Below, piece after piece: positions 733 to 50,957 of a stretch of DNA of 55,031 nucleotides. This stretch comes from Halobacteriales archaeon QS_4_66_20 (GTDB lineage: Archaea > Halobacteriota > Halobacteria > Halobacteriales > Haloarculaceae): contig PXRK01000046.1 of the NCBI GenBank assembly GCA_003021015.1, positions 1 to 55,031 of the forward strand, written 5' to 3'. The position numbers and the translations under genes were made by a program. A model generated the notes under the pieces. That model was not told where the DNA came from. It did no database searches and saw nothing but the letters and a program-made list of their open reading frames with translations. Numbering within the stretch: the stretch's first letter is position 1; each line of letters begins with the position of its first letter.

Positions 733-782
733 ATACAGTCGTTCGTGATTCAGTACCGCTACGGTGTCACAGTTCGTGCGTC
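733..782 (+). repeat. Fragment of dispersed palindromic-arm element (type E arm)
   Basis: The left arm ATACAGTCGTTCGTGATT and about 50 bp of interior match, on the reverse strand, the right side of the element at 15896-16116 with only a few differences. No clear right arm follows, so this is a truncated copy. It sits between the convergent 3' ends of the PIN gene and the helicase gene. Confidence 0.65.
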
Positions 783-821
783 AGAAAAAACTGATGAACG
801 TGCAACAGGTCATATGAGTGC

Positions 822-3557
822 TCAGGTGCGCGATTTCTCGCGGTCCTGTCCCTCGATCTCGTCGAGCACACGCTGGTGGAACTCCTGGAGCACCGCGGAC
901 TCGTCCTCCGCGAGTACGACGTCGGAGGCCATCAGCGTCGCCAGGCCGAACGCCTTCGGCGTCGGCGAATCGACCCGGGTCGATGCCACCCTGATCTCGC
1001 CCGACTGGATGCCAGCGACGACGTCCTCGATTCCCGCGACGTTGAGTTTGTCCTCCAGAATCTCGCGGTAGGTCTCCTCGATGACCGCGAACGCTTCGAG
1101 GTCCTCCGCAAACCCCAGCAGCATCTCGCTGTTGACCTGCTGTTCGCTCGCGGACTTCTCGTAGCCCTTGTAGCGTTTGAGGATCATCAGCGAGCGGGTC
1201 GCGTTGATCCGGAAGTACCGCTGCAGCAGGTCGGTGCCGTCGAGGCTCGCCCGCAGGTCCGCGCGCACCTCCGCGGGCTCGATGGATTCGAGGATGCCAG
1301 CCAGGTCGACTTTCCGGTTCAGCGGCAAGGAGAGGGTGAACCCGTGGTCGGCGACGGCGACTTTCACGTTCGCGTTTGCCTCCTGGGCGCACCGGTAGGC
1401 CAGCAGCCGCGAGAGACCGTCGTTGAACCGCCGGCCGTAGTTCGAGTGGACGTAGTAGTGGCGCTCGTACTCGTCGTGGTCCAGTTCCTCCTCGATGACG
1501 AGCCGACTGTGGGTGCTGACGCTCTCCGACCCGGCGTAGCGGACCTGCTCGTCGAACATCCGGGTGATCGCCCGGACGCTGTGTTCGTCCAGCGGGAGCT
1601 CCCGCAGCCACACCCGCAGCTCCGAGCGACCGCCGCGGGCGAGCCGTTCGAGCAGTTCCCGCTGGAAGGCCAGTATCTCCCGCCCGAGGTCGTAGGAGAG
1701 GGGGAGCCGCTCGGAGAACCACGACGGCACCGTCGGGCGGGCGGCTGTCCGGTCGACGTACACCTTCGACCCGCGCCGGTAGCGGTACTCGAAGCGGTCG
1801 CCGCCGAGCACGAACACGTCGCCCCCTTCGAGCGTGTCGAGGTACTCCTCGTCGAGCTGGCCGACCCACTCGTCGCCGGTCCGGGTGAACACGTCGCAGG
1901 TGAACGAATCGGGGATCGTCCCGATGTTCGTCATGTAGATCACGCGAGCGAGGCGGCCGCGCTTGCCGATCAGCGGCTCCCCGACGTCGAACTCGTCGTA
2001 GTGGTACTCGCCGTCCGGCGCGTCGTTCGTGTCCCGCCAGATCTTCGCGTAGACGTTTTTCGCCTCCATCCCCTCGTAGTCCGCAGTGAGGTACCGACAG
2101 AGCTGCTCCCACTCCTCGTTGCCGTACTCGCGGTAGGGGTACGCTCGCTCCAGGATGTTGCGGATGTCGGCCTCCGGACGGGGGCCGTTGATCGCCATGC
2201 CGTAGACGTGCTGTGCGGCGACGTCCTGGGCGTTCTCGGGGACGAACACCCGGTCGACAAAGCCCTCCTCGGCCTTCGTGAGCATCACCGCACACTCGAT
2301 CAGTTCGTCGCGGTCCAGCGCGAACACGCGCCCGGTGACCGTCTCGCCGAGCTGGTGGCCGGCCCGGCCCACCCGCTGGAGCAGCGCTGCGACGGATTTG
2401 GGCGAGCCCACCTGCACCACCAGGTCGATGTACGGCATGTCGATGCCCAGCTCCAGCGACGTCGACGTCGTGACGACGTCCAGTTCCCCGCGCTTGAGGT
2501 CCTCCTCGATGGCCTGGCGTTTCTCCTTGGCGAGGCTGCCGTGGTGACAGCCGGAGTTGTCCTCGTCGTAGGCGTCGAACCGCTCGCGGAGGTTGTGCAG
2601 CACGCGCTCGGCGCCCGAGCGGGTGTTCGTGAACACGAGCGTGTTGGTGTGGTCCCCCACGAGGTCGTGCAGCTGCCGGTAGAACCGGTCGTTGACCACG
2701 TCCGCGGGCGTGTCGATGAGGTCGTCGGCCGGGCAGGTCAGTTCCATGTCGAACTCCCGGACGAACCGGGTGTCGACGAGTTCGTACTCCCGGGGCTCAC
2801 CGCCGGGCTCGGCCCGACCCACGAGGAACTTCGCCATCGCGTCCAGCGGCTCGACCGTCGCCGAGCAGCCGATCCGCGTCGGCGAGCCGTCCGCGAGCGC
2901 TTCCAGTCGCTCTAGCGACACCGCCAGGTGGGTGCCGCGCTTGTTCTCCGCGAGGCTGTGGATCTCGTCGACGATGACGTACTCGACGGTCCGGAGCTTC
3001 TCGCGGAACTTCGGGGAGTTGAGCAGGATCGCCAGGGTTTCCGGCGTCGTGTTCAGGATGTGTGGCGTCTCGGTGAGCATCGCCTGGCGCTCGCTGTCGT
3101 CGGTGTCGCCGTGCCGGATCGCGTGACGGATCTCGACGTCCTCGCCGCGGTCGGCGAGCTTCTCGGTGATCCCCTCGAGGGGGACCTCCAGGTTCCGGTG
3201 GATGTCGTTGGCGAGTGACTTCAGCGGCGAGACGTACAGGCAGTAGACGCTGTTCTCGAGGCCTTCCTCTGTCCGGTCGCGGCGAAACAGTTCGTTGATG
3301 ATGCTGCAGTAGCCCGAGAGCGTCTTGCCACTTCCCGTCGGCGACGCCACGAGCGCGTTTTCGCCCTCGTGGATAAGCGGGATCGCCTCCTTCTGTGGGG
3401 GCGTGAAGAAGCCGCCGTTCTGGGGAACGAACTCGCCGAACTGCTCGACCCACCACTCCTGGACAACCGGCTCCAGCAGTTCGAGCACATCGGCGTCGTC
3501 GACCTCTCGGCGGTCGAACTCATCTACGTCGCTGGCGATCCCGTCGGCGTCTCCCAT
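822..3557 (-). CDS. lhr: Lhr-family ATP-dependent helicase
   Basis: A superfamily 2 DNA/RNA helicase of 911 residues, predicted to be cytoplasmic and to work in DNA repair or recombination as Lhr-type enzymes do. Visible motifs are a Q-like segment FTPPQKEAIP (about 51-60), Walker A ASPTGSGKT (71-79), SPLKSLAND (motif Ia), TPETLA (motif Ib), the DEIH box (197-200), GCSAT (motif III), and QRVGRAGH (motif VI, 394-401). Beyond the two RecA domains lies a long C-terminal part of about 500 residues that matches the Lhr-core layout (winged helix plus DUF4145/Lhr C-terminal region). The start ATG at 3557 gives an acidic N-terminus. It is a single-gene unit and converges with the PIN gene. Confidence 0.9.
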   Translation of the reverse strand: MGDADGIASDVDEFDRREVDDADVLELLEPVVQEWWVEQFGEFVPQNGGFFTPPQKEAIPLIHEGENALVASPTGSGKTLSGYCSIINELFRRDRTEEGLENSVYCLYVSPLKSLANDIHRNLEVPLEGITEKLADRGEDVEIRHAIRHGDTDDSERQAMLTETPHILNTTPETLAILLNSPKFREKLRTVEYVIVDEIHSLAENKRGTHLAVSLERLEALADGSPTRIGCSATVEPLDAMAKFLVGRAEPGGEPREYELVDTRFVREFDMELTCPADDLIDTPADVVNDRFYRQLHDLVGDHTNTLVFTNTRSGAERVLHNLRERFDAYDEDNSGCHHGSLAKEKRQAIEEDLKRGELDVVTTSTSLELGIDMPYIDLVVQVGSPKSVAALLQRVGRAGHQLGETVTGRVFALDRDELIECAVMLTKAEEGFVDRVFVPENAQDVAAQHVYGMAINGPRPEADIRNILERAYPYREYGNEEWEQLCRYLTADYEGMEAKNVYAKIWRDTNDAPDGEYHYDEFDVGEPLIGKRGRLARVIYMTNIGTIPDSFTCDVFTRTGDEWVGQLDEEYLDTLEGGDVFVLGGDRFEYRYRRGSKVYVDRTAARPTVPSWFSERLPLSYDLGREILAFQRELLERLARGGRSELRVWLRELPLDEHSVRAITRMFDEQVRYAGSESVSTHSRLVIEEELDHDEYERHYYVHSNYGRRFNDGLSRLLAYRCAQEANANVKVAVADHGFTLSLPLNRKVDLAGILESIEPAEVRADLRASLDGTDLLQRYFRINATRSLMILKRYKGYEKSASEQQVNSEMLLGFAEDLEAFAVIEETYREILEDKLNVAGIEDVVAGIQSGEIRVASTRVDSPTPKAFGLATLMASDVVLAEDESAVLQEFHQRVLDEIEGQDREKSRT

Positions 3558-3687
3558 CCTCTCTGGTCGGTCCGACGGGCTGCAGTTCCTTGGACGTTTG
3601 GAGTGTCCGGTAAGAGTGAAATGAAACTGGGAAGGCCCCCGATACTGGAGCCTACTCGTTTATTACACCGGCAGAACAACTCCCGGT

Positions 3688-4878
3688 ATGGAGTTCAGCC
3701 GCTCGACCGAGCAACGACAGATCACGGAGATGGTCGCGGAGTTCGCCGACGAGGAGATCCGCCCGCGTGCGGCCGAGATCGACGAGACCGACGAGTTTCC
3801 CTGGGATTTGGTCGAGGAGATGGCCGAGCTGGGCCTGATGGGGATGCCGATCCCCGAGGAGTACGGCGGCGCCGGCCTCGACTACCACTCCTACGCGGCG
3901 GCGCTGGAGGAGATCTCGCGGGGCAGCGGCGGCCTCGGCACGGTCGTCGCCGCCCACATCTCGCTGGCGTGCAACATGATCTACGAGTTCGGTGACGAGG
4001 CCCAGAAGGAGGAGTTCCTGACGCCGCTGGCCGAGGGCCACGAAATCGGCGCGTTCGCGCTGTCGGAGGCCGGCGCCGGCAGCGACGTCCCCTCCATGGA
4101 GACGACCGCCACCCGGGACACCGCCGAGCAACGCTCGGCGAGCCCCGAACCGACCGAAGCAGTTCAGGACGGCGACGAGTACGTCATCGACGGCGGGAAG
4201 CTCTGGATCTCCAACGGATCGGTCGCGGACACGGTGATCGTCTTCGCCAAGACCGACCCCGAGGCTGGCGGCAAGGGCATCTCCTCGTTTATCGTCCGTC
4301 CGGAGGAAGACGACGGGTTCATCGTCGAGGGCACCGAGCACAAGCTCGGCGACAAGGGCTGTCCGACCGCCGAACTCCGGTTCGACGGCCTCCGCGTGCC
4401 CGCCAACCGCCTGCTCGGCGAGGAGAACCGGGGGCTGGTGCAGGCGCTGAAGACGCTCAACGGCGGCCGGATCACCATCGCCGCCCGCGGCGTCGGGATC
4501 GCACAGGCCGCACTGGACGAGGCGCTTGGGTACGCCCAGGACCGCGAGCAGTTCGACCAGCCGATCAGTGAGTTCCAGGCGATCCAGCACAAACTCGCCG
4601 ACATGGACACGAAGACGAACGCCGCCCGGATGCTGATGCACCTCGCCGCCGACAGGAAGATGCGCGGCGAGGAGTTCGTCAAGGAGGCCGCCCAGGCGAA
4701 GCTGTACGCCTCCGAGGTGTCCCGCGAGGTCGCAAACGAGGGGATCCAGATCCACGGCGGCTACGGCTACACCAAGGACTTTCCCGCCGAGCGGTTCTAC
4801 CGCGACGCCAAGCTCAACGAGATCTACGAGGGGACCAGCGAGATCCTCCGCAACACGATCGCTGACCAGCTGCTATAG
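3688..4878 (+). CDS. acyl-CoA dehydrogenase
   Basis: A 396-residue FAD-dependent acyl-CoA dehydrogenase that would introduce the alpha-beta double bond in an acyl-CoA and pass electrons to an electron-transfer flavoprotein. The N-terminal helical domain is followed by the flavin/substrate block [10 protein letters not shown] and the [11 protein letters not shown] segment. The C-terminal domain holds [10 protein letters not shown] and ends with [11 protein letters not shown], in which Glu-381 is the expected catalytic base. Length is normal apart from an insert of about 20 residues (around residues 138-157, rich in Ala, Glu and Pro) just before the DEYVIDG strand, which is probably a surface loop. 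It is a stand-alone gene; no ETF or thiolase gene lies beside it. Substrate chain length cannot be read from the sequence. Confidence 0.93.
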
Positions 4879-4960
4879 TAACTACTCGGCGTTGTCGTCG
4901 GGAACGCCAAAACCGAAGCTTTCAATCACACGTAGTCGTAAGCGCCACTCGTAGCCAACT

Positions 4961-5320
4961 ATGAACCGTATCGACGGCGGTAGACGGGCGCTGTCGCAGG
5001 CCAGCGGTGCGTGGCTGGGGCGGGTCATCGCTGACTGTGTCAGTGACGACAGCTCCAGTGCCCGTCGGAGACGGCGCGGGCGTATCTCAGAGGCGTCCGG
5101 GCCGGCCGCCAGCCGCGTCAACACGGCGACTGGGACGCGGGCGGACGGGGACAGCACAGTTCCCGGCCCGGCCGGCAGTGGCGGCGCGGACGCCTACCGT
5201 TGGGACGGTCTCCCAGACACCAATCGGGCAATGCAGTGCGGTGATCGTCACACGACCGATCGGCAGTGCGCCGGCCGGTGTCCGACCGGTCGCGCGCGAG
5301 CGCACAGGAGGGTAATCTAA
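4961..5320 (+). CDS. small hypothetical protein ahead of the redox operon
   Basis: An open frame of 119 codons whose TAA stop overlaps by one base the ATG of the iron-sulfur gene, which suggests coupling. Third-position GC is fairly high in the first two thirds. The product is Arg-rich rather than acidic, which is unusual here, and it has no domain I recognise; scattered Cys residues do not form a clear metal motif. It may be a real small protein or a 5' leader. Confidence is low. Confidence 0.35.
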   Translation: MNRIDGGRRALSQASGAWLGRVIADCVSDDSSSARRRRRGRISEASGPAASRVNTATGTRADGDSTVPGPAGSGGADAYRWDGLPDTNRAMQCGDRHTTDRQCAGRCPTGRARAHRRVI

Positions 5321-6801
5321 TGAGTACAGAGGACACACAAGACGACGAACCACGACACCCATACGAATCGGAGGATTCGTTCCACCCGCTCGGGGAAGAA
5401 TGGGAAGACCGGATGCGCGAGGAGCTCGAGGACACGGAGTACGACGCTGACCTCGGCATGCAGATGGCCCGGGACGCCCAGCGGCTGGTCGCCGGCGAAA
5501 TCTCCGAGGAGGAGTTCTACGCGGAGTATCACGACGACGTCGAGGAGGAGTTCGAGGCCGACGACCGACCGCTGTTCGACGACGTCGACCCCGCCGAGTG
5601 GGACGACATCGAGGACGAGTCGGTAGCTGAATCGCTCGCGGAGGCGGACCTCCAGGGCGACGAAACCTCGCGCCGTGAGATGATGAAAAAGATGGGCGCC
5701 GGCGCGGCCTTTTTGGGGTACGGTGCCTACGCGACGTACGACTTCCAGCCAGCGGACGGCGCCCCGGACAACGTCAGCGGCATCCGGCCGGCGCCGAAAG
5801 ACGAGCGCGAGCACCGCTGGGGGATGGTCATCGATCTCCAGCGCTGTGACAGCTGTCTGGCCTGCGTCGCCGGCTGTATCGACGAGAACGGCACCTCGAC
5901 AGGGGCCAACTGGATGTACGTCTTCACCTACGAGGACGAGGACAGCGAACAGGAGAACTTCCTGGTGCGGCCCTGTCAGCACTGTTCGAACGCCCCGTGT
6001 GCGAAGGTCTGTCCCGTCCGGGCACGGCACACTCGGGGGAAGGACGGCCTCGTGCTGACCGACTACGAGACCTGTATCGGCTGCCGGTACTGCCAGGTCG
6101 CCTGTCCCTACGGCGTCAACTACTTCCAGTGGGGCGAACCCGACGTGGAGATGAGCCGGCTCGAGCACCTCGACATGCGGCCCGAAGAGGTCCGGCAACT
6201 CGAGGGCGGCGACTACGGGGATCGTGACTCCGAACGGTACCAGGAGCTCTCGGATGCCAACGACCACGTCTACGACTACCGCGGCCGCTGGACGGACAGC
6301 CGCCCGCCCCAGGGGACGATGGGCAAGTGTACGATGTGCCCCTCGCGACAGGACGGCCACACCGACAACCCCAAGGGTACTGTCGCCTGCATGGACGCCT
6401 GCGACGCGCAGGGCATGAGCGCGATCCACTTCGGCGACCTCGACGACGAGGAGAGCCGCGCGAACCGCTACCTGCGCCGCCGGACCGAGGTCGAGCGGAC
6501 CGTCCTCGAGAAATGGGAAGGCGTGGAGGACGATGACCTCGACATCGAGACGACCGCGAGCCCGACGTCGGAGATCTCCACGTTCCGGCTGCTGGAGGAC
6601 CTCGGCACGCAGCCGAACATCGTCTACCTCGGCAACGAGCCGGGGCCGAACGCGGAGCAGAGCGAGCCGCCGACGCCGTACGAGGTGTACAGCGGCAGCA
6701 ACAACAAGTGGGGCGTCGAGGTGGTCGACGAGCGCAAGGAGCACCTCGACTACGGGCCGAGCGGACCGCCCGAACAAGAGGGCGAAGAAGGGGGTGAGTG
6801 A
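5320..6801 (+). CDS. 4Fe-4S dicluster-type iron-sulfur protein with Tat anchor (PsrB/DmsB/NrfC-like)
   Basis: A 493-residue electron-transfer subunit. Residues 1-115 form an extremely acidic N-terminal domain. A twin-arginine motif SRREMMKKMG (117-126) with a short hydrophobic stretch follows, so the Tat signal is internal and may remain as a membrane anchor. The remainder carries four groups of cysteines: CDSCLACVAGC (176-186), CQHCSNAPCAKVCP, CIGCRYCQVACP, and CTMC plus CMDAC. That is the pattern for four 4Fe-4S clusters. Start at ATG 5320, with a strong AGGAGG-type site about 10 bases upstream, rather than ATG 5266. The stop overlaps the next gene region. The product likely shuttles electrons between a membrane quinol subunit (next gene) and an unknown partner outside the membrane. 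Confidence 0.88.
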   Translation: MSTEDTQDDEPRHPYESEDSFHPLGEEWEDRMREELEDTEYDADLGMQMARDAQRLVAGEISEEEFYAEYHDDVEEEFEADDRPLFDDVDPAEWDDIEDESVAESLAEADLQGDETSRREMMKKMGAGAAFLGYGAYATYDFQPADGAPDNVSGIRPAPKDEREHRWGMVIDLQRCDSCLACVAGCIDENGTSTGANWMYVFTYEDEDSEQENFLVRPCQHCSNAPCAKVCPVRARHTRGKDGLVLTDYETCIGCRYCQVACPYGVNYFQWGEPDVEMSRLEHLDMRPEEVRQLEGGDYGDRDSERYQELSDANDHVYDYRGRWTDSRPPQGTMGKCTMCPSRQDGHTDNPKGTVACMDACDAQGMSAIHFGDLDDEESRANRYLRRRTEVERTVLEKWEGVEDDDLDIETTASPTSEISTFRLLEDLGTQPNIVYLGNEPGPNAEQSEPPTPYEVYSGSNNKWGVEVVDERKEHLDYGPSGPPEQEGEEGGE

Positions 6802-6803
6802 GG

Positions 6804-8413: not shown

Positions 8414-8496
8414 CCGGCACCCTCGATTCTCCTGGGCCGATCCCGTCGTCGGCGCGAACCCGAAAAGGTCACCCGTCTACGCTCCTAACTTCAGGT

Positions 8497-9678: not shown

Positions 9679-9716
9679 CCGCCGCGACGAGCACGCCGTT
9701 CGTACGGACTGCTGTA

Positions 9717-9726
9717 ATTGTTTTTT
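9717..9726 (+). terminator. T-rich stretch after apbC, possible terminator
   Basis: A run of six T (9721-9726) lies about 45 bases after the apbC stop. Archaeal termination often needs only a U-rich tract. No clear hairpin precedes it. Confidence 0.3.
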
Positions 9727-9759
9727 AGGTCTCCTTCGCACTCCTGGAGTTTTCTGGCC

Positions 9760-9776
9760 ATACTGATTATTGTGAC
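9760..9776 (+). repeat. Solo arm of dispersed element (type A)
   Basis: ATACTGATTATTGTGAC matches the left arm of the type A elements (for example 49085-49102). No matching right arm is seen before 9938. Confidence 0.5.
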
Positions 9777-9938
9777 GGCTCTTACCTAATCTGGCGAAAC
9801 AACTGTCGTATGTATGATATTGATAACGGTTGGTACACAAGATACAACGCGCATACTGACCAATATCGACAGGGGAGCTACTAGCGACTCTGTAATTTCA
9901 CCAATCAATTTAACCAAATCGGAGTTCATGGGGCACAC

Positions 9939-10463
9939 ATGTCGGAGAAAAGAACATCAGCCGTTGAAATTCGTCGGTTTCAGTCCGAGGACGGCGAGCG
10001 TATCCGTGAGTTGAACGAAATTGCAATGGCCACGACTCCTGAGTTTGAGCCAGATGTTCCAGACAAGGACCTCCGAGATGTTCAAAGCAACTACCTCTGC
10101 AGTGGCAGGGAATTTCTCGTTGCGATTGTAGATGGTACAATCGTTGGTATGGGAGCCTACACGACACCGGATGAGTGGAAAGAGGAGTTCATTCAACTCG
10201 ATAGCCAAACCACTGAACTGACACGAATGCGTGTTGATCCTGAGTGCCATGGGCAAGGGGTTGGGAGGGCTGTCTACCACGACCTTGAACAGCGTGCGCG
10301 GCACGATGGATATGAACAGTTTGTGTTGGACACAGGTGTCGAGAACGACACCGCGCGTGCTTTCTACGAGAGCCTTGGATTCCAATTCCAGCAGGAGGTG
10401 TCCATCCACTTTGGAGATCTATCATTTGAGTTGGTACTGTACAAAAAGTCCATCATTGAATAG
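9939..10463 (+). CDS. GNAT-family N-acetyltransferase
   Basis: A 174-residue acetyltransferase. It shows the GNAT core: strand LVAIVDGTIVGMGAY, the acetyl-CoA pyrophosphate loop in RMRVDPECHGQGVGRAVY (Q-x-x-G-x-A type), and the C-terminal ENDTARAFYESLGF motif. It transfers an acetyl group from acetyl-CoA to an amine, but the substrate cannot be told. The gene is visibly AT-richer than its neighbours, uses many A/T-ending codons and is less acidic, and the flanking DNA is also AT-rich. This points to horizontal acquisition. It is a single gene with no partner. Confidence 0.88.
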   Translation: MSEKRTSAVEIRRFQSEDGERIRELNEIAMATTPEFEPDVPDKDLRDVQSNYLCSGREFLVAIVDGTIVGMGAYTTPDEWKEEFIQLDSQTTELTRMRVDPECHGQGVGRAVYHDLEQRARHDGYEQFVLDTGVENDTARAFYESLGFQFQQEVSIHFGDLSFELVLYKKSIIE

Positions 10464-10535
10464 TTGTACTACATCTTGCACTGGCCCACCTAACAACCTC
10501 CTGATAGATGCCGCTGTTTCACTATATTCGGCAAG

Positions 10536-10607
10536 AGCGATTGTGACTGTGTACCGGGTCGACTGCACGTTGTCACGTGGTCGCTCTCGGACCGACTCAC
10601 AATCAGC
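10536..10607 (-). repeat. Degraded copy of the 82-bp dispersed element
   Basis: The interior reads almost the same as the reverse complement of 22471-22552, including TGTGACTGTGTACCGGGTCG. The arms AGCGATTGTGACT and ACTCACAATCAGC are shortened and have diverged. It lies in the 403-bp gap between the acetyltransferase and fumC (10464-10866), which otherwise holds only the next repeat and the fumC promoter region. Confidence 0.55.
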
Positions 10608-10651
10608 CCGCAAACCACCCGTTCACGTGATCTGGGCACGAAAACGATCAT

Positions 10652-10762
10652 ATACAGCCAGACGTGACTCCGTACAGTGCCAGGACAATCCATCGGCTGT
10701 GTCATGGCGCGAACAACGGGAATTGGGACAGCATGACTCGAGTGAATCACGTCTGGCTGTAT
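10652..10762 (+). repeat. Dispersed palindromic-arm element, type F, complete
   Basis: Arms ATACAGCCAGACGTGACT and its near-perfect complement (17 of 18). The whole 111 bp is similar to 15914-16023 in the opposite orientation. An 8-bp direct repeat AACGATCA flanks it at 10643-10650 and 10763-10770. Confidence 0.8.
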
Positions 10763-10866
10763 AACGATCACTATGCGACACCGGGGATTGTACCCTACGG
10801 CGATACGAAGTCACAGCAGTCCGTATCAGTAGCTTTTACGCGCCGGCGGCCGAACCGTCGGCCGAT

Positions 10867-14018: not shown

Positions 14019-14166
14019 ATAGGATTGTTGTGACTCGTTACCGCCGCCGATTCGCCATACTCCGGTCTCATATACACCCGGACGTGCTTCGCCTCGTGGT
14101 GATGACGCCATGTTTCTCGTCGATGGCGCAACCTACCTCCACAGGAGCGATCACAACAGTCAGTAT
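14019..14166 (+). repeat. Dispersed element type A, enlarged and rearranged
   Basis: The left arm ATAGGATTGTTGTGACT and about 40 bp of interior match the type A elements at 42098 and 49085. The right arm is GATCACAACAGTCAGTAT. A type G arm beginning ATACACCCGGACGTG lies inside near 14073, suggesting a second element inserted and was partly lost. The right end abuts the stop codon of the Hsp20-like gene. Confidence 0.65.
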
Positions 14167-15774: not shown

Positions 15775-15895
15775 GCGATCTGATAGCCTGCGCAGGAATG
15801 TAAACACTTGTCAGACGCCCGACTGACACGACGGCGCCTCGCCGCCATCCGCGACAGCCCGCCGGGGCGCGACACAGCTCATATGGTCGTGCGTG

Positions 15896-16116
15896 ATACG
15901 GTCGTTCGTGACTATACAGCCAGACGTGATTTACTCAAGCCGTGCCATCCCAAATCTCGTTTTCGGGGCACGACACAGCCGATGGACTGTCGTGGCACTG
16001 TCCGGAGTCACGTCTGGCTGTATATTATTGGAACTGCCTCGTCATATCGGGCGTTTGCCGGGCTGTGGCGCACGAACTGTGACACCGTAGCGGTACAGAG
16101 TCACGCACGACCGTCT
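15896..16116 (+). repeat. Dispersed element type E with a type F element inserted in it
   Basis: Left arm ATACGGTCGTTCGTGACT at 15896-15913, right arm AGTCACGCACGACCGTCT ending at 16116. Total 221 bp, of which 110 bp is the inner element, leaving one unit of 111 bp. A further copy of the left arm (15881-15897) stands immediately outside. The right end abuts the CPBP protease stop codon. Most of the 341-bp gap 15775-16115 is this composite. Confidence 0.75.
15914..16023 (-). repeat. Dispersed element type F nested inside type E
   Basis: Arms ATACAGCCAGACGTGATT and its complement; 110 bp; similar along its whole length to 10652-10762 in the opposite orientation. Confidence 0.8.
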
Positions 16117-22470: not shown

Positions 22471-22552
22471 ATAGTGATTATTGTGAGTCATTCCGGGATC
22501 GATCGCACGACTGCGTGCGGTCGACCCGGTACACAGTCACAATAATCACTAT
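22471..22552 (+). repeat. Dispersed element, 82-bp subgroup
   Basis: Arms ATAGTGATTATTGTGAGT and ACTGTGATTATTGTGACT-type complement (right arm ends AATAATCACTAT). It is flanked by TGA on both sides (22469-22471 and 22552-22554). It begins 10 bases after the trmB stop. Confidence 0.8.
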
Positions 22553-24594: not shown

Positions 24595-24704
24595 ATACTG
24601 TCGGACGTGACTCTGTGGAATGGCAAGACACGCAAACCGATGTATTCACACGTTTCAGCACAATTCCGCGGTGGAACTCTCCACGTACTCACGTCCGACA
24701 GTAT
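24595..24704 (+). repeat. Dispersed palindromic-arm element, type C
   Basis: Arms ATACTGTCGGACGTGACT and its complement (right arm ACTCACGTCCGACAGTAT, differing by one base); 110 bp. Flanks are TGA on the left and TAA on the right. Confidence 0.8.
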
Positions 24705-25383: not shown

Positions 25384-25465
25384 ATAGTGATTAGTGCGAC
25401 TGTTTTCCAGTTCGACCGCATGCCGTCGTGCGGTCGATACTGTAACGACTCGCACTAGTCACTAT
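25384..25465 (+). repeat. Dispersed element, 82-bp subgroup
   Basis: Left arm ATAGTGATTAGTGCGACT, right arm ACTCGCACTAGTCACTAT; an internal palindrome around CGACCGCATGCCGTCGTGCG; length identical to 22471-22552. It is flanked by TCA on both sides. Confidence 0.78.
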
Positions 25466-26971: not shown

Positions 26972-27193
26972 ATGCACCCGGACGTGATTCGCCTCATAGT
27001 GGTTGTTGTGATTGTTTTCAGAGTGCCCCGGAAAAACAAGGATTTCGGGGCTTGAACCGTCGGTATTGTGTCTGCCCGGCGGCAAAGAGTCACAACAACC
27101 ACTATCAGTCATCTCGACACAGCTCGGGACTGTCAGGGTCAGTACTCGTGGATATCGTGTCCTGACGTGTCACAGAGTCACGTCCGGGTGTAT
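26972..27193 (+). repeat. Dispersed element type G with a type A element inserted
   Basis: Left arm ATGCACCCGGACGTGATT, right arm AGTCACGTCCGGGTGTAT. The total is 222 bp; removing the inner 110 bp leaves one unit of about 111 bp. It lies in the 586-bp gap 26794-27379, which is AT-rich outside the repeats and divides two divergent transcription units. Confidence 0.75.
26996..27105 (+). repeat. Dispersed element type A nested inside type G
   Basis: Arms ATAGTGGTTGTTGTGATT and its complement ending CAACAACCACTAT; 110 bp. TCA stands on both sides (26994-26996 and 27105-27107). Confidence 0.82.
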
Positions 27194-35910: not shown

Positions 35911-36020
35911 ATACTGGTGGCTGTAAGTACGTGAAAACTCGAATTGAGAATCCAGGCCGAAAGGTTCTGTATCCTCAGATAGCAGAGACTGGTGAGTAAG
36001 AGAATTACAGCCACCAGTAT
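35911..36020 (+). repeat. Dispersed palindromic-arm element, type B
   Basis: Arms ATACTGGTGGCTGTAAGT and a complement; 110 bp; about eight differences in 110 bases from the reverse complement of 46230-46339. It is flanked by TAA on both sides. It fills the end of the 363-bp gap between tnpB and the next gene (35745-36107). Confidence 0.85.
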
Positions 36021-42046: not shown

Positions 42047-42048
42047 TC

Positions 42049-42270
42049 ATACTGCCGGACGTGATTCCGTTACCACCCGGATAGCGCTCAGCATCTGATA
42101 GTGATTGTTGTGACTCTTTACCGCCGTGTATTCGCCAGACGCCAGTTTCGGGCCGTGAAACCGCCGCTACTGCGATGTGGTGCCGAAAATACTCACAACA
42201 ATCACTATGAGACAACCGAAAACCCCAGTCTGAGCAACACTCGGAGTAACATAGTCACGTCCGGCAGTAT
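42049..42270 (+). repeat. Dispersed element type D with a type A element inserted
   Basis: Left arm ATACTGCCGGACGTGATT and right arm AGTCACGTCCGGCAGTAT; total 222 bp, 111 bp once the inner element is removed. TCA stands on both sides; the right TCA is the stop codon of the next gene. Confidence 0.85.
42098..42208 (+). repeat. Dispersed element type A nested inside type D
   Basis: Arms ATAGTGATTGTTGTGACT and complement; 111 bp. It has TGA on both sides. About 89% identical to 49085-49195; among the 12 differences, the fourth base and fourth-from-last base changed together (G/C versus C/G). Confidence 0.88.
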
Positions 42271-42809: not shown

Positions 42810-43042
42810 GCCATGCCGGTTCGCCCCGCAACGGAATAACCCGTTCGACTTCCGCCCGCGGGGAGGCACGCGCGACCTGCGCACGACCGGACTGCCACCG
42901 CGGCGAGCAGGAGACGCCCCTGTTTCAGGTCGACGGCGACGAGCGCGGCGTCGAGCGTGGCGTCGAGCGCGCCGAGGGCCTTTACATCGTCGAACACTCC
43001 TGCTCCCCAACCGATAAGACTGACCGGCCCGGACGGGGGAAC

Positions 43043-43672: not shown

Positions 43673-43750
43673 TCGGGAGTTGGACTGGTGCTGAAACTGC
43701 GGCGACCGCTGTAACGTCGAGAGCCCTCGGCGCGATCGCGGCTCCAGCTG

Positions 43751-43907
43751 ATACGGTCGTGCGTGATTATTTTCAGCACTGGGACCCAATATCCGCTGGT
43801 TTCACGGGCTGAAACGCACAACACGCGATTCCATAGCGTCGTCGGGCAAAGCCCGACTGCCTGGGAGACGTAGTCTCCCTCTGGTACAAAGTCACGCACG
43901 ACCGTAT
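43751..43907 (+). repeat. Dispersed element type E with a 47-bp insertion
   Basis: Arms ATACGGTCGTGCGTGATT and complement; TGA on both sides. Its 157 bp equals a 110-bp unit plus about 47 bp, which contains two short hairpins. It fills half of the 301-bp gap 43673-43973. Confidence 0.8.
43841..43879. repeat. Two adjacent hairpins inside the type E element
   Basis: GTCGGGC-AAA-GCCCGAC (43841-43857) and GGGAGAC-GTA-GTCTCCC (43863-43879), both perfect. Two tight hairpins resemble the ends of an IS200/IS605 element joined together (a PATE-like remnant). Confidence 0.6.
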
Positions 43908-43973
43908 GAGTGGGCAGTCGGTTGCCGTCCCCGAAAGATTGAAGCGAGACCTCGACTTATGCTACCATGGACC

Positions 43974-44123
43974 ATGTGTCACCACGAGTACGATCCGATC
44001 GATTGGCCCGAGGCGCCCGAGGAGGAGCACGACGAGGAGTTCGAAGAACAGGAAACGCCCTCGTTCCTGAACGAGGAGCGCGAGACAGACGTCGAACTGG
44101 TCACCGACGGCGGCGACGAGTGA
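43974..44123 (+). CDS. small acidic protein
   Basis: A 49-codon frame beginning MCHHEYDPIDWPEAPEEEHD and continuing with many Glu and Asp; the CHH start could bind a metal. The codon use is normal for this genome. It is not part of a known family that I recognise. An ATG seven bases upstream is in another frame. It lies about 120 bases upstream of the acetolactate-synthase-like gene. Confidence 0.5.
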   Translation: MCHHEYDPIDWPEAPEEEHDEEFEEQETPSFLNEERETDVELVTDGGDE

Positions 44124-44243
44124 TCTGCGGCTCGACACGACATTGACCTTCTCCTCCGCGTGAACGCGGAATCACTACAGCCCCGCCGTCACCCCTCGTT
44201 TCTAGCAACCGGAATTAAGCAATGGGAGCGTCAACAGCTAGCC

Positions 44244-45824: not shown

Positions 45825-45931
45825 ACAAACGACGAGAGTCAGGTCCGGATGTGTATCCCCTGTTCGAGGAGTTCCTCACACATACGCGGAATCGAAACGG
45901 ATAACAACAGCCCTCGGGTACAGACAGGTGA

Positions 45932-46016
45932 GCCGAGGTAGCCTAGCCTGGCCAAGGCGCCTGCCTCGAGAGCAGGTGTCTGAGAGGACTCGTGAGTTCA
46001 AATCTCACCCTCGGCG
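45932..46016 (+). tRNA. tRNA-Ser (anticodon CGA)
   Basis: An 85-base type II tRNA. The acceptor stem GCCGAGG (45932-45938) pairs with CCTCGGC (46009-46015) and the discriminator is G. The anticodon stem CCTGC/GCAGG encloses the loop CTCGAGA with anticodon CGA for UCG. A long variable arm (GTCTGAGAGGACTC region) and the T arm with GTTCAAAT follow. No CCA is encoded and no intron is seen. Confidence 0.93.
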
Positions 46017-46086
46017 CTTTTCGACTCGATGTACCAGAATCGACAGCCACGAATTTCCTCCGATCATCGGCACCGGCCTGACAGGG

Positions 46087-46230
46087 TTGTTCGGCTGGAT
46101 GATCGGCAGCTACGGCGGGTACGAGGGGTCGTTGCGTTACGTCGTGACCGCAGGATTGCTGGTCGTGTACTTTGTCATCCTCGTCGGCGTGTGGGAAGCG
46201 CTGAAGCACACCAGCACGCGAGGGGGGTGA
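46087..46230 (+). CDS. small membrane protein with an unclear or lost start
   Basis: The frame ending at TGA 46228-46230 encodes LFGWMIGSYGGYEGSLRYVV and then AGLLVVYFVILVGVWEALKH, a two-helix membrane protein typical of haloarchaea. No ATG or GTG fits upstream in this frame: it runs back into the tRNA gene. A TTG at 46087 is one option (47 residues). An ATG at 46029 is in another frame, so a frameshift in the N-terminal part is likely. The TGA stop is also the TGA beside the adjacent dispersed element. Confidence 0.45.
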   Translation: MFGWMIGSYGGYEGSLRYVVTAGLLVVYFVILVGVWEALKHTSTRGG

Positions 46231-46339
46231 TACTGGTGGCTGTAATTCTTTTACTCACCAGTCTCTGCCATCTGCGGATATAGACCCGTTCCGCCTGGAT
46301 TCTCAGTTCGAGTTTTCACGTACTTACAGCCACCAGTAT
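46230..46339 (-). repeat. Dispersed palindromic-arm element, type B
   Basis: Arms ATACTGGTGGCTGTAATT and complement; 110 bp; about 93% identical to the reverse complement of 35911-36020. TGA stands on both sides; the left one is the stop codon of the small membrane protein. Confidence 0.88.
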
Positions 46340-46366
46340 GAGAACGAGCACGGGGGTTCGAGCCCG

Positions 46367-46519
46367 TCAGACGGGTACGTTCTCGGCGACGAGGAAGATG
46401 AGAATCGAGACCGCGAGGACCCCGACGACGAACGCCGCGGCGAGGCCGGTCGCCATCGGCACCATCGCGTTGGCGTGGCTGGCGAGCGTCTCGGTGCGGT
46501 CGTTGCCGAAGACGTTCAC
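46367..46519 (-). CDS. C-terminal membrane-helix segment of the DUF2070 gene, now a separate frame
   Basis: A 50-codon frame from GTG 46519 to TGA 46367-46369 that reads VNVFGNDRTETLASHANAMV, then a membrane helix AAAFVVGVLAVSILIFLVAE. It overlaps the DUF2070 stop codon by four bases (GTGA). The sequence resembles the C-terminal part of DUF2070 proteins rather than an independent small protein. So it is probably the tail of the upstream gene separated by a deletion and frameshift, unless translational coupling gives two chains. Confidence 0.55.
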   Translation of the reverse strand: MNVFGNDRTETLASHANAMVPMATGLAAAFVVGVLAVSILIFLVAENVPV

Positions 46520-48120
46520 CTCCGTGCGCTCGGGTTGACGACGTGGGTGTCGCTGGTCATCACCTCGGCAGTGTCGACGCGGTCGAGCGACTCCAGAAGT
46601 GTCTCGCGGAGCCCGGGCTCCATGTTGTTGCCGTCGACGAGGACGTAGGCGGTCCGGTTGTCGCCGGCTTCGAGCAGCGCCACGCGGATACCGAGCGGGC
46701 CGATCCCCGCCGCGGGGCCCCAGGGCGTCTCGTCCCAGGCCGTCCCGAGCCGCAGGGGCTGCTGGTCCAGGCCAACGAGGCGCTCGCCGAGGCGGCCGGC
46801 GCCGGCGATCAGGTCGAACGACCGCTGGCTCCCGGGGCCGATGTGTCCGAGGTCGCCGCCTTCGAGGCCGTCGTTGCAGTTGTGCGCGTCGACGAGCAAC
46901 ACGTCCTCAAGGCCGCTGGTCCGGGCCTCCGAGGCGGCGGCCAGGCCGACGGCGTACTCGATGTCGTCGGCGCACGTGGGCGCGAAGGAGTTGACGAGCA
47001 GCGCGTCGTCGCCGAACGCGTGGCCGGTCAGCGTCGCGTCCCCCTCGGTCGTGCGGACGCCCGAGGTCGCAGTGGCGGTGTACTCGACCTGCTGGAGGGC
47101 GCGGTCGGCCGCCGCACAGACCCGATCGACCTCGCGTTCGGTGACCAGGTTGAAGTCGTGGCCCGCCGTGGCGTGTGGCGCGAAGCTCAAGGCGTCGGTC
47201 GCCTTGGCTAGCTGGACCGGGAGGTTGCCGCCGCCGATGTCGCCCATCGGCCCCGGGTGGATCATCGGCAGCACGAACCGCGCTTTCTCCTCGCCCTCCG
47301 GCCGGCGAAAGGAGAGCACGGTGACCGGGACGACCGCCTCCTCGCCGATGTCCTCGAAAAAGCCCTCCAGTTCGCGGGAGTCCTCCGCGAGGTGGCCGAT
47401 GAACCCCTGGATGAAATCCAGCACGGAGACGCCGAGCGAGGAGCGCCACGGGCGGTCGACGATCGCCAGGAACACGAGCGCCGCCGTCGCGTGGACGAGG
47501 CAGGTGATCCCCAGCAGGACGAAGTCGAACGGGTAGATGCTGTACTGCAGTTCCAGCGTCGTGTGCTCGGGCCGGGCGAAAAACGTCTGCAGGAACGGGC
47601 CGCCGACCTGGAAGAAGTAAAGTGTCCCGCTGTAGACGAACAGCAGCACGGCTGCGGCGAGCGTCTGGATGCTGGCGGGCACCAGCGCGAGCAGCGGGTT
47701 CCGGTTGGAGATGGAGAGGATCACGAGCAGGCGGAGTGCGAAGACGGCCGCGAGCGCGACCAGCAGCGCGTCGAGGACGAACTCCTGTGTGAACCCGAGC
47801 AGCCACGACTGCACCCCGGCGACCAACAGCACGGTGACGATGAGTACCTCACAGAGCAGCGCCAACAGCGACGCGCGGTCGCTCGTCAGCCGCCCGCCGA
47901 GCGCGCGGTCGACCGGAGCCGTGAGAAAACTCGCCGCGACCGTCGGGAGGCCGACGAAGAACACGCCGCGCCAGGCGTCGTCGAGCGGGTACGCCGAGTC
48001 GAAGGCGACGATCCCTGTGACCGCGGCGAGTGTGAGCGCCAGCGCGAGGCTGGAGTACCATCTGGGCACCCGGAAGATGTACCGCGACAGCCCCGCGAGG
48101 TTGCTCTGTGTCGTCGTCAC
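46516..48120 (-). CDS. DUF2070-family membrane protein (probably missing its normal C-terminus)
   Basis: A 534-residue archaeal membrane protein started at GTG 48120. The N-terminal half holds about seven membrane helices (SSLALALTLAAVTGIVAF, LVAGVQSWLLGF, LLVALAAVFALRLLVILSIS and others). The second half is a soluble domain with conserved MIHPGPMGDIGGGNLPVQLA, DAHNCNDGLEGGDLGHIGPG and EVMTSDTHVVN. DUF2070 proteins are widespread in Euryarchaeota, with no known activity; the His, Asp and Asn residues hint at an enzyme. After DTHVVN the frame ends abruptly in PSARR; the neighbouring small frame carries the usual last helix. Confidence 0.82.
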   Translation of the reverse strand: MTTTQSNLAGLSRYIFRVPRWYSSLALALTLAAVTGIVAFDSAYPLDDAWRGVFFVGLPTVAASFLTAPVDRALGGRLTSDRASLLALLCEVLIVTVLLVAGVQSWLLGFTQEFVLDALLVALAAVFALRLLVILSISNRNPLLALVPASIQTLAAAVLLFVYSGTLYFFQVGGPFLQTFFARPEHTTLELQYSIYPFDFVLLGITCLVHATAALVFLAIVDRPWRSSLGVSVLDFIQGFIGHLAEDSRELEGFFEDIGEEAVVPVTVLSFRRPEGEEKARFVLPMIHPGPMGDIGGGNLPVQLAKATDALSFAPHATAGHDFNLVTEREVDRVCAAADRALQQVEYTATATSGVRTTEGDATLTGHAFGDDALLVNSFAPTCADDIEYAVGLAAASEARTSGLEDVLLVDAHNCNDGLEGGDLGHIGPGSQRSFDLIAGAGRLGERLVGLDQQPLRLGTAWDETPWGPAAGIGPLGIRVALLEAGDNRTAYVLVDGNNMEPGLRETLLESLDRVDTAEVMTSDTHVVNPSARR

Positions 48121-48231
48121 TGGTCTAGTGACAACATCGATATGAGTTAAAAGTGTGTGGTTTGTCTCCGATGGGGAAACGAGATCGACCGGCGTCGGCG
48201 CAGTGCATCGACGACCTGCGTCAGCGGCCAG

Positions 48232-48780
48232 TCACTCACAGAGCGCGAGGAAGTTCTCGAACACCTCGTCGCCTTCCTCGGTGTGGGCGACTTCGGGGTG
48301 CCACTGGACGCCGAACAGCTCGCGGTCGGCGTCGCTCATCGCCTCGACGCCGCAGACGTCGCTTTTGCCGGTCCGCTCGAACCCGTCGGGCACGCGTTTC
48401 ACCTCGTCGGCGTGGCTGGCCCACACCCGCGTCTCCGGGGTCAGCGAGCCCACCAGCGGGTCGTCGTCGTCGGTGATGTCGACGGTGACGTCGGCGTAGC
48501 CGCCGTAGTCGCCGGGGCCGACCTCGCCGCCGAGTTCGTCGGCGATGATCTGCATGCCCAGGCAGATGCCCAGCACGGGCACGTCCAGGTCGAGGTACTC
48601 GGGGCAGTTGCCGATGCGGTCGATGTCCGGGCCGCCCGAGAGCACGAGACCGTCGGCGTCGATCTCCGCCGGCGGGGTGTCGTTGTCGACGAGAGTCACG
48701 TCCACCCCCATGTCACGGAGCGCACGCTGTTCGAGGTGCGTGAACTGCCCGTGATTGTCGATCACGTCGATGCGCGTCAT
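48232..48780 (-). CDS. guaAA: GMP synthase glutaminase subunit A
   Basis: A 182-residue class I glutamine amidotransferase. The catalytic nucleophile is in GICLGMQII, and the His/Glu pair in VQWHPEVAHTEEG. In archaea the GMP synthase is split into a glutaminase and a separate ATP-PPase subunit (GuaAB), and this is the former. It releases ammonia from glutamine for XMP amination. ATG 48780 begins at MTRIDVIDNHGQF, typical for the family; the longer frame has no support. The synthetase subunit is not in the window. Confidence 0.92.
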   Translation of the reverse strand: MTRIDVIDNHGQFTHLEQRALRDMGVDVTLVDNDTPPAEIDADGLVLSGGPDIDRIGNCPEYLDLDVPVLGICLGMQIIADELGGEVGPGDYGGYADVTVDITDDDDPLVGSLTPETRVWASHADEVKRVPDGFERTGKSDVCGVEAMSDADRELFGVQWHPEVAHTEEGDEVFENFLALCE

Positions 48781-48820
48781 TGCCACCGCGTAGACGACCG
48801 GGAAATAAAGGTTACCCGTT

Positions 48821-49024
48821 CTAGGACGAACAATCCTGCGAGCCGTCTGGCAGCCGCCCCAGCGCGACCAGTCCGACACTCGCCGCCAACGAACCGAGCA
48901 CTACCGCCACTATCACGTCGGAAACGAAGCCGACGCCCAGAAGCCGGAGAACGACCACGGCGACGCAGATGCTACCCTCTACGGCGAGCAGCAGCCGCCA
49001 GTTCAGCTCCGTCCGTCCACTCAC
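48821..49024 (-). CDS. small two-helix membrane protein
   Basis: A 67-residue protein with two helices (WRLLLAVEGSICVAVVVLRLL and VIVAVVLGSLAASVGLVALG). Single gene on the minus strand, 40 bases upstream of guaAA. No family recognised. Confidence 0.55.
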   Translation of the reverse strand: MSGRTELNWRLLLAVEGSICVAVVVLRLLGVGFVSDVIVAVVLGSLAASVGLVALGRLPDGSQDCSS

Positions 49025-49084
49025 ATCGGAACTGTTTCCTCAGCAGGATATAAACGTTCCCGCCAGTTTCTCCGGGAGAGACTC

Positions 49085-49195
49085 ATACTGATTGTTGTGA
49101 CTCGTTACCGCCGGGTATTCGTCAGACGCCAGTTTCGAGCCGTGAAACCGCCGCTATTGCGATGTAGTGGTGAAAATAATTACAACAATCAGTAT
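49085..49195 (+). repeat. Dispersed palindromic-arm element, type A
   Basis: Arms ATACTGATTGTTGTGACT and a complement ending CAACAATCAGTAT; 111 bp; about 89% identical to 42098-42208. TCA stands on both sides; the right TCA is the stop codon of the gamma-glutamyltransferase gene. Confidence 0.88.
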
Positions 49196-50826
49196 CAGAA
49201 TCCAGCGACCTGGCCGTCCTTGCGGGGTTCGGTCGCACCCGAGAGCGTGCCATCGTCGTCGCGGACGGCCTCCGCGCCGCCGAACGCCGACGCGGGTTCG
49301 ACCCGGACGTCGTGGCCCTTGCGTGCGAGTTTCGGGGCGACGCCGGCCGGCAGTCGCTCCTCGATGGCGAGGGTGCCGTCGGCACGGTAGCGCCAGCGCG
49401 GCGCGTCCAGCGCGGCCTGCAGCGGCATGTCGTAGTCGACGAGGTTGGCGAGCACCTGGACGTGGCCCTGGGGCTGCATGTACCCGCCCATGACGCCAAA
49501 GGCGAGCCAGTCCGTCTCGTCGAACCGGGCCAGCGCGGGCACGAGCGTGTGGAACGGCCGCTTGCCGGGTTCCAGGCGGTTCGGGTCCGCCGGATCGAGC
49601 GAGAACGAGGCGCCGCGGTTCTGGAGCGCGATGCCGGTGTCGCCGGCGACCAGCCCGCTACCGAAGCCCGCGAAGCGGGAGTTGATGTACGAGACGAGGT
49701 TCCCCTCGTCGTCGGCGACGGTCAGCAGGACCGTGTCGGCGTCCTCGCCGGTCGCGTCGGGCGTCCCGACCGCCACGTCGGTGAGGGCCTCGTCGGGGCT
49801 GAACTCCGCAGCGCGGCGCTGTGCCCAGGATTGTGTGTGTAGCGGCGGCGCCTCCTCGTAGGCGGGGTCGGTGACGTAGTGGTGGCCGTCGGTGAACGCC
49901 AGCTTCATCGCCTCGGCGAAGGCGTGGATGCGCTCGGGGGAGTCGTAGGGGTGCCCGCCTGCGCCGATTTCCTCCGCGATGTTCAGCGCTTCGAGCGCGA
50001 TCTGGCCCTGATTGTTGGGGCCGAGTTCGAACACCTCGCAGCCGCCGTAGGTCGTCGAGATGGGGTCGAGCCACTCCACCTCGAACTCCGCGAGGTCGTC
50101 GACAGTGAGGAAGCCACCATGCGACTGGACTTCCTCGGCGATCGCTTCGCCGATCGCACCCTCGTAGACGACGTCGGCACCCTCCTCGGCGATCCGGCGC
50201 ATCGACTCGCCGAGCTTCGGGAGCGCGACGGGCTGGCCGACGTCAGGGGCCTCACCGTCGAACAGGAACGCCTCGCGCGCGTGGTCGTCCTGGAACAACT
50301 GTTCGGCGTGCTGCCACTGCGCGGAGACGACCTCCGTGACGGGGTAGCCTTCGGTGGCGTACCCGATGGCCGGGTCGAGGACGTCGGCGAGGGTGAGCCG
50401 GCCGAGGCGTTCGACGGTCGCTTCCCAGCCCCGTGCCGTTCCAGGGACGGTGATGGTGTGCGGGCCGGTGTCGGGCATGGCGACGCCCTCGGGATCGGTG
50501 CCGGATTCGTCGCTGTCGTCCGCGACGGTCTCGCGGACGCGCTCGCGAGTCGCTCGCTCGGGGGCGTGGCCGCAGGCGCGCATCGCGCCGGCGTCGCCGT
50601 CGGCGGTCCGGTAGCAGGCGAAGACGTCGCCGCCGAGGCCGGTGCTGGTGGGTTCGACGACGTTCAGTGTAGCGGCGGTCGCGACGGCGGCGTCGAAGGC
50701 GTTGCCGCCCTCGCGCAGAACGGTCGCGCCCGCCTCCGCAGCGAGCGGCTGGCTCGTCGCGACGACGCCGCGGGGGGCGTACACTGTCGACCGGCGGGAA
50801 CTGAAACGATCGAGGTCGGGATCCAT
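49195..50826 (-). CDS. ggt: gamma-glutamyltransferase
   Basis: A 543-residue Ntn-hydrolase. The precursor would cleave itself before the nucleophile Thr in EDADTVLLTVADDEGNLVSY. Upstream signatures are VVATSQPLAAEAGATVLREG, GGNAFDAAVATAATLNVVEP and STGLGGDVF; downstream FAGFGSGLVAGDTGIALQNR and FGVMGGYMQPQGHVQVL are present. It transfers or hydrolyses gamma-glutamyl groups; haloarchaea use gamma-glutamylcysteine rather than glutathione, so that is a plausible substrate. No signal peptide, so likely cytoplasmic. ATG 50826 puts the protein at the normal family length. Confidence 0.92.
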   Translation of the reverse strand: MDPDLDRFSSRRSTVYAPRGVVATSQPLAAEAGATVLREGGNAFDAAVATAATLNVVEPTSTGLGGDVFACYRTADGDAGAMRACGHAPERATRERVRETVADDSDESGTDPEGVAMPDTGPHTITVPGTARGWEATVERLGRLTLADVLDPAIGYATEGYPVTEVVSAQWQHAEQLFQDDHAREAFLFDGEAPDVGQPVALPKLGESMRRIAEEGADVVYEGAIGEAIAEEVQSHGGFLTVDDLAEFEVEWLDPISTTYGGCEVFELGPNNQGQIALEALNIAEEIGAGGHPYDSPERIHAFAEAMKLAFTDGHHYVTDPAYEEAPPLHTQSWAQRRAAEFSPDEALTDVAVGTPDATGEDADTVLLTVADDEGNLVSYINSRFAGFGSGLVAGDTGIALQNRGASFSLDPADPNRLEPGKRPFHTLVPALARFDETDWLAFGVMGGYMQPQGHVQVLANLVDYDMPLQAALDAPRWRYRADGTLAIEERLPAGVAPKLARKGHDVRVEPASAFGGAEAVRDDDGTLSGATEPRKDGQVAGF

Positions 50827-50939
50827 GGCCCCCGATTGGGAGTCTGGCGTAAAAACAGTTGCAGGGACGTTCGGCCAGGACAGGATATCTACGTATAGCG
50901 ACCGTGAGACTACTGATTTGTGTCGAGATATCTTAGGCA

Positions 50940-50957
50940 AATCACGTCCGGGTGTAT
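50940..50957 (+). repeat. Solo right arm of a type G element
   Basis: AATCACGTCCGGGTGTAT matches the right arm at 27176-27193 apart from the first base. No clear left arm is found; a degenerate ATAGCGACCGTGAGACT lies at about 50895-50911. Confidence 0.5.

Follow-up and report, generated by a model that had tools for sequence, protein, structure and literature searches.

The window analysed here, 55,031 bp of DNA from Halobacteriales archaeon QS_4_66_20 (contig PXRK01000046.1, 65.6% G+C), holds a dispersed family of elements of about 110 bp whose two inverted terminal arms differ between copies and agree within a copy, which raises the question of what keeps the arms alike. The first-pass annotation of the window had offered two answers, a set of related transposases with shifted specificity or selection on the pairing of the arms itself. 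The elements are, with good confidence, miniature inverted-repeat transposable elements (MITEs), non-autonomous and as a rule geneless, that are moved in trans by transposases of the IS630 family (IS630/Tc1/mariner, DDE_3). The window is contig 46 of an 86-contig, 2.89-Mb, 89%-complete metagenome-assembled genome (MAG), which falls within the genus of Halovenus aranensis. A 700-bp part of a contig from G004, of the same genus, was an exact match in Halovenus aranensis record NZ_FNFC01000018.1.

Agreement of the arms

The strict two-arm pattern ATA-N9-GTGAYT-N50-75-ARTCAC-N9-TAT was found at 90 places in the host genome and at none in a backwards control. Inverted pairs were also scanned in 778,524 bp, made up of the window and 40 stretches mostly picked for containing elements. 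There, 119 ATA..TAT pairs spaced 40-300 bp apart agreed at no fewer than 14 of 16 arm positions, while the control start trinucleotides TAA, AAT, TTA and ATT gave 1, 2, 1 and 13 pairs. When the arms of 96 elements were recognised separately, they differed at a mean of 0.57 of nine positions, against 4.41 with shuffled partners, where none of 2000 shuffles fell below 3.55. Both ends had the same nearest arm type in 81 of the 96, against 10.6 by shuffling (highest 21). The agreement is thus well beyond chance, and shuffled partners never came close to it.

It had been claimed that the arms always match. This held for 87 of 101 host-genome elements with separately recognised arms, where matching arms are those that share their nearest type or differ at no more than one position; the other 14 were mixed, so copies with unlike arms do exist. 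A set of stretches from four genomes, totalling 1.66 Mb and chosen partly for containing elements, gave 190 elements with up to three arm mismatches: 140 with identical arms, 34 with one mismatch and 16 with two or three. Nearly all (188) were distinct in sequence. The 140 identical-arm elements sorted into 15 discrete arm types, twelve with at least four copies and three singletons, which bears out the earlier observation of several N9 values, each the same in both arms. In nine subfamilies the arms deviated from consensus at 25 of 2904 positions (22 per element) and the interiors at 590 of 7981; as membership of a subfamily was decided on the arms, one mismatch being the most allowed in an element, the arm deviation is biased downward, but at 0.9% it lies well below the 4.5% that this rule permits.

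Complete elements were mostly of 110-111 bp, with an 82-bp subgroup and nested pairs of about 220 bp, and most had one GTGACT-like and one GTGATT-like end. A 50-bp hairpin in G095 (L106, 1501-1550) consisted of two GTGATTGCT ends back to back, a minimal two-arm element.

Target duplications and empty sites

In the host genome, 81 of the 87 same-arm elements were flanked by a target duplication, 64 of TNA and 17 of TA. Most arm types had TGA or TCA, rarely TAA or TTA, on both sides of a TA...TA core, and the CAGCCAGAC and CACCCGGAC types were flanked by TA. Duplications were present in 123 of the 140 identical-arm elements of the four-genome set, in 29 of the 34 with one mismatch and in 9 of the 16 with two or three. 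Their length followed the arm type: the TA types showed 17 two-bp and one three-bp duplications, the other types two and 103 (Fisher p = 1e-17, a nominal value as the copies are related). This favours the first of the two earlier answers, a set of transposases with shifted specificity.

Empty sites were found as well. The element at 42049-42270 was interrupted where intact copies of the CTGCCGGAC interior carried the empty site AGCATCTGAGACAAC, and that at 26972-27193 where intact CACCCGGAC-type interiors carried CCTCAGTCATC; in both cases one TNA was present in the empty site and two in the filled one. The nested copy at 15914 fitted a TA duplication by its length. The sequence alone allows two readings, a TNA duplication around a TA..TA core, or a one-base or no duplication around an ATA..TAT core. 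The outer A and T of the ATA-N9 arms first proposed may be counted to the target duplication, which leaves a TA...TA core. The elements look like transposon insertions rather than structures kept for pairing. As in MITEs, they are short (mainly 82 and 110-111 bp), have terminal inverted repeats, lack a transposase gene, and show the TA or TNA duplication of the candidate parent insertion sequence (IS).

Host-genome TNA insertions often hit a TGA stop codon and duplicated it, with the frame left intact. Among 27 insertions with an open frame of at least 150 codons leading in, the frame ended exactly at the duplication in 17, compared with 5 in each of the other two frames. At 100 codons the counts were 23 of 63 for the insertions and 103 of 551 for CTGAG sites used as controls (p = 0.002). 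The excess may reflect survivorship.

Elements in the window

The elements are listed below; the sign + means that the GTGACT-like end lies on the left, and a dot that no strand is given.

733..760 (+): fragment, lone CAGTCGTTC-type arm with a piece of interior
9703..10825 (.): candidate long element of 1123 bp with matching CGGACTGCT ends, flanked by TCG and TCA
10652..10762 (+): complete 111-bp element, arms CAGCCAGAC, TA duplication
14019..14166 (.): composite, outer arms like xTGATTGTT (the left one base short), internal CACCCGGAC-type arm at 14072, no clean duplication
15881..16116 (.): composite, outer element of the CGGTCGTGC end type around an CGGTCGTTC arm and a nested copy with CAGCCAGAC arms
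15914..16023 (-): complete 110-bp CAGCCAGAC element nested in 15881..16116, TA duplication
22471..22552 (.): 82-bp element, arms GTGATTATT, TGA duplication, long near-complete hairpin
24595..24704 (+): 110-bp element, arms CTGTCGGAC, flanks TGA/TAA, no clean duplication
25384..25465 (.): 82-bp element, arms GTGATTAGT/GTGACTAGT, TCA duplication; one of the arms is identical to TAGTGATTAGT, an IS630 end of two genomes
26972..27193 (.): outer CACCCGGAC element, interrupted by 26996..27105
26996..27105 (-): 110-bp element, arms GTGGTTGTT, TCA duplication, within a CACCCGGAC-type interior
35911..36020 (+): 110-bp element, arms CTGGTGGCT, TAA duplication
42049..42270 (.): outer CTGCCGGAC element, TCA duplication, interrupted by 42098..42208
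42098..42208 (+): 111-bp element, arms GTGATTGTT, TGA duplication, within a CTGCCGGAC-type interior
43751..43907 (-): CGGTCGTGC element of 157 bp (155-bp core), TGA duplication, insert of about 46 bp
46230..46339 (-): 110-bp element, arms CTGGTGGCT, TGA duplication
49085..49195 (+): 111-bp element, arms CTGATTGTT, TCA duplication that doubles as the TGA stop of the minus-strand open reading frame (ORF) 49195-50940
50940..50957 (-): fragment, lone CACCCGGAC arm

On rereading the sequence, the copies first listed at 10652-10762, 15914-16023, 22471-22552, 24595-24704, 25384-25465, 26996-27105, 35911-36020, 42098-42208, 46230-46339 and 49085-49195 proved complete. The entries at 733, 9760, 25365, 41447 and 50940 turned out to be fragments or lone arms; the regions 14019-14166 and 15881-16116 are composites. 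The insert of about 46 bp in 43751..43907 holds two small hairpins (GTCGGGC-AAA-GCCCGAC and GGGAGAC-GTA-GTCTCCC) and is perhaps another small mobile piece.

Mixed arms and shared interiors

Of the 14 mixed elements of the host genome, six had a duplication (with two or three arm differences) and eight had none, the latter including all five with at least five arm differences. Some mixed copies may have arisen by insertion into the GTGA of another arm, or by joining of the left and right ends of neighbours across a like interior.

Most interior clusters carried a single arm type, as would be expected if each arm type were an independent MITE derived from its own IS and the shared interior blocks were due to convergence or chance. 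Several interiors speak against that explanation. One cluster in G009 bore GTGGTTGTT arms in 14 copies and CGGACGTTC arms in five, with TNA duplications in 18 of the 19 and the same internal polymorphism under both arm types. One CACCCGGAC-type interior, normally flanked by TA, carried CTGTCGGAC/CTGTCGAAC arms and a TTA duplication, and GTGATTGTT and CTGATTGTT arms alternated on near-identical interiors. In addition, length, GTGAYT and end asymmetry were common across the types. Separate origins for all types are thus unlikely. The single-family view had been said to fail if each N9 type were the terminus of an unrelated IS with no shared interior; here some interiors were common to several arm types, and the ISs with like ends form one family.

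Because the interiors in G009, of the CACCCGGAC type and under GTGATTGTT/CTGATTGTT carry differing arms, a further possibility can be put forward, tentatively and at somewhat less than an even chance as a whole: one old 110-bp MITE chassis, widespread in Halobacteria, would have repeatedly exchanged both ends in concert, by nesting into an arm's GTGA followed by recombination. Each exchange would have put it at the service of another IS630 transposase, and some would even have taken it from TA to TNA targets or back. It would also account for the SMR-A repeats described below, and some copies may carry passenger genes, such as the acetyltransferase at 9703-10825. If true, the element would be a parasite of transposons that changes hosts through swapped ends.

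IS630-family elements as candidate movers

Candidate autonomous elements were found in related haloarchaea. They are IS630-family ISs (DDE_3) of about 1.05-1.15 kb with TNA or TA duplications. Ends and duplications were assigned, independently of the MITE arms, for 41 of the 67 IS loci whose domain match was near-full. Judged by eye, the end type tracked the transposase tree, and groups with TNA and with TA duplications were both present. In the TNA group the ends differed by clade (TAGTGAYTAG, TACGGTCGTGC, TAGGGTCGG and others). A distant group duplicated TA, except one four-member subclade (L389, L372, L386 and L393) with TNA, which appears to have gone over to TNA duplication, a natural change of target length.

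An IS630 element of G002, from the same genus as the host, was present at six loci representing four distinct sites. It is about 1.12 kb long, with ends TAGTGATTAG/TAGTGACTAG (bounded by TAGTGATTAG and CTAGTCACTA), and its duplications at the four sites were TTA, TGA, TCA and TGA; the ends match over only about 10 bp and were recognised by comparing the copies. Relatives of its DDE domain occurred in 134 of 392 genomes of the order, and none in the host genome. In one IS630 copy (L238, 1470-1490) the reading frame was split at a seven-A run, as in a programmed frameshift, and copy L247 was one base shorter.

Summed over 13 MITE arm types, the mismatches to the closest IS end came to 21; column-mixed controls gave an expectation of 35.0, and none of the 2000 fell below 25. 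Two types matched exactly, CGGTCGTGC, which equals both ends of two ISs and a single end of another two, and GTGATTAGT, whose match is to a single end, and the remaining 11 were one to three mismatches from an IS end. TACGGTCGTGC is the exact end of one IS clade and TAGTGATTAGT one end in another, and both are arm types of the window. IS630 elements with like or identical ends thus exist in related genomes, as the idea of related transposases would have it. Fifteen ISs of the TNA group had a TTTRCY motif at core position 19 in 26 of their 30 ends. The motif was also present in 31 of 318 ends of MITEs, chiefly those of types GTGATTGTT, CTGATTGTT, CGGTCGTGC and CGGACGTTC, with a window background of 1 in 1031.

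In the proposed mechanism the core would be TA-N9-GTGAYT...ARTCAC-N9-TA, of which the 11-bp TA-N9 end would be the part recognised by the transposase. Both ends would have to suit one transposase, so that a mobile copy would have matching arms. Insertion would duplicate TNA (mostly TGA or TCA, often in CTSAG) or TA, depending on the arm type, and the different N9 types would be the ends of different IS630 subgroups. Mixed-arm copies would arise after insertion, by nesting, with the arms' own GTGA as target, or by recombination between neighbouring copies. One interior lineage may have changed its end pair to follow different transposases.

Several results weigh against movement by IS630 transposases. 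DDE_3 had no match in the host MAG, and among 11 other element-bearing genomes it was found in four (G002, G013, G004 and G009) and not in G006, G008, G012, G017, G095, G179 or G134. G095 is near-complete and has 18 arm hits, yet the 1.5 kb around them showed no long element bounded by such arms. End assignment required a TA start and a TNA or TA duplication and left 26 of the 67 IS loci with no ends, and some assignments, such as L365, look doubtful. Exact matches were limited to two of the 13 arm types, GTGATTAGT at one end. Singly, seven types were closer to an IS end than 95% of letter-permuted controls and six were not (for CTGATTGTT 0.26, for CAGCCAGAC 0.18). The nearest IS ends for GTGATTGTT and GTGGTTGTT came from ISs with the other duplication length, and most MITE ends were without TTTRCY. 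A parent transposase in the same genome is no strict requirement for a MITE, since the transposase can be lost, and multicopy ISs easily drop out of an assembly. Such a transposase may once have been present in the host.

The same gaps could point to a host-encoded or unlinked transposase, acting as RAYT does on REP, with the IS630 likeness due to convergence on TA/CTNAG targets. Besides the missing DDE_3 matches and the limitation of exact end matches to two arm types, G002 had two identical 111-bp copies at different places, and the surroundings of its strict arm hits showed no long element bounded by those arms. Against it stand the exact 11-bp agreement with two IS end types, the joint closeness of the 13 types and the occurrence of both duplication lengths within the IS family, which make this explanation quite improbable.

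Two other leads were set aside. DDE_Tnp_1 (IS4/IS5) was considered as mobiliser, with one match in the host genome and matches in nine of 11 relatives; at 47 transposase loci no such arms were among the best one or two inverted pairs listed. In G002 a solo arm lies next to a DDE_3 gene, but it points away from the gene and was dismissed.

Pairing of the arms

Selection or repair of the pairing itself (a hairpin in RNA or single-stranded DNA), with changes in one arm compensated in the other, could explain why the arms match far beyond chance and why interiors occur with both arms changed together, and six folded window elements were more stable than shuffles (z -4.3 to -9.8); but inverted ends alone give stable folding, the arms fall into few near-invariant types, 34 elements with a one-arm mismatch stand against three singleton types changed in both arms, target duplications and matching arms go together, and an Rfam scan of the window at gathering score matched only a tRNA, so this second earlier answer is very improbable.

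Distribution of the elements

The strict two-arm pattern occurred in eight of 97 relatives and in five of 392 genomes of the order, with the host genome counted in both, and these genomes span three families. Like elements were also found on plasmids of Halovenus salina, Halorubrum salinarum and Halobacterium sp. When 27 selected genomes were probed with DNA, eight gave matches, all of them weak. In viral contigs the ATASTGATTGYTGTGAYT pattern matched 51 stretches, with no partner at element spacing among the up to three best listed for each and a G+C of 30-46% throughout; they were read as chance, and so was the single match in phage records (E = 4). A multiply nested complex of the host genome (L066, 8186-8519) recurred in G134, of another family (L164, 1470-1640), which suggests transfer between families or mis-binning.

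A possible passenger unit

The region 9703-10825 has identical ends TACGGACTGCT 1123 bp apart, flanked by TCG and TCA, and encloses several arms and copies. It contains an ORF (9939-10463) whose 174-aa product is a GNAT-type acetyltransferase (Pfam Acetyltransf_1, E = 2.7e-20), and any resemblance to IS630 proteins found within it was at chance level. Its end type was also present on a 109-bp element of G017, whose halves align weakly with both window ends. The region could be either a long MITE with a passenger gene or a 109-bp element that later insertions broke up. A scan of the window and the other loci analysed for identical ends 130-3500 bp apart gave 21 pairs. Of the 13 with a duplication, two were the same 880-bp span from one copy to another, and the rest were copies of 155-222 bp that were nested or held an insert; the eight with none were one nested pair, spans between copies, and 9703-10825.

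Comparison with known systems

The nearest described repeats are SMR-A of Haloquadratum walsbyi (HqIRS42, HqIRS43 and HqIRS55). In the passages of PMC3119063 that treat them, they are geneless repeats of about 110 bp with prominent terminal inverted repeats and many copies, are reported to lack a target duplication, to be unlike any known transposon and to prefer the near-terminal palindromes of PATEs/IS605 elements, and their mobilisation is called enigmatic. Among the papers listed by a literature search on haloarchaeal MITEs, SMR repeats and archaeal IS630/Tc1, only this one treats these repeats. Three copies of 110, 110 and 109 bp were found in 140 kb of G111, read as Haloquadratum walsbyi, the second and third being 89% and 93% identical to the first. 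They start with ATAGTGA, have TCTTTACC or TATTTACC blocks and show duplications of TGA, TCA and TGA. On Haloquadratum plasmid PL47 and most of PL100, no element of the family appeared at the setting used, only one unrelated 106-bp inverted pair. Size and prominent inverted ends are common to SMR-A and the present family, whereas SMR-A was described without duplication and 81 of 87 elements here, as well as all three Haloquadratum copies, have one together with IS630-like ends. From the description, the G111 copies and the family are probably SMR-A repeats, and the ATA..TAT reading of the core may be the reason why SMR-A was said to lack duplications.

IS630-family ISs share the ends, the TA or TNA duplication and the CTNAG-like sites, and differ in being about 1.05-1.15 kb long with a transposase, while the elements here are mostly geneless and of 82-111 bp. 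Correia elements, RUP and Nezha are small non-autonomous bacterial elements tied to IS630-type transposases; they are generally known with one terminal repeat each, whereas the present elements have many end types, in some cases on a common interior. Tc4/Tc5 of Caenorhabditis, though eukaryotic, duplicate TNA at CTNAG and share this with the present elements.

Tying abundant haloarchaeal small repeats to a specific transposase family makes their movement testable. The series of end types, some on shared interiors, together with a transposase tree with two duplication lengths forms a data set on specificity change, and it bears on how a Tc1/mariner-type transposase shifts its end and target specificity. 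Compared with the known systems, the mechanism is the ordinary one of MITEs; what is unusual is the range of end types on some shared interiors, and the mover that is offered for SMR-A-like repeats.

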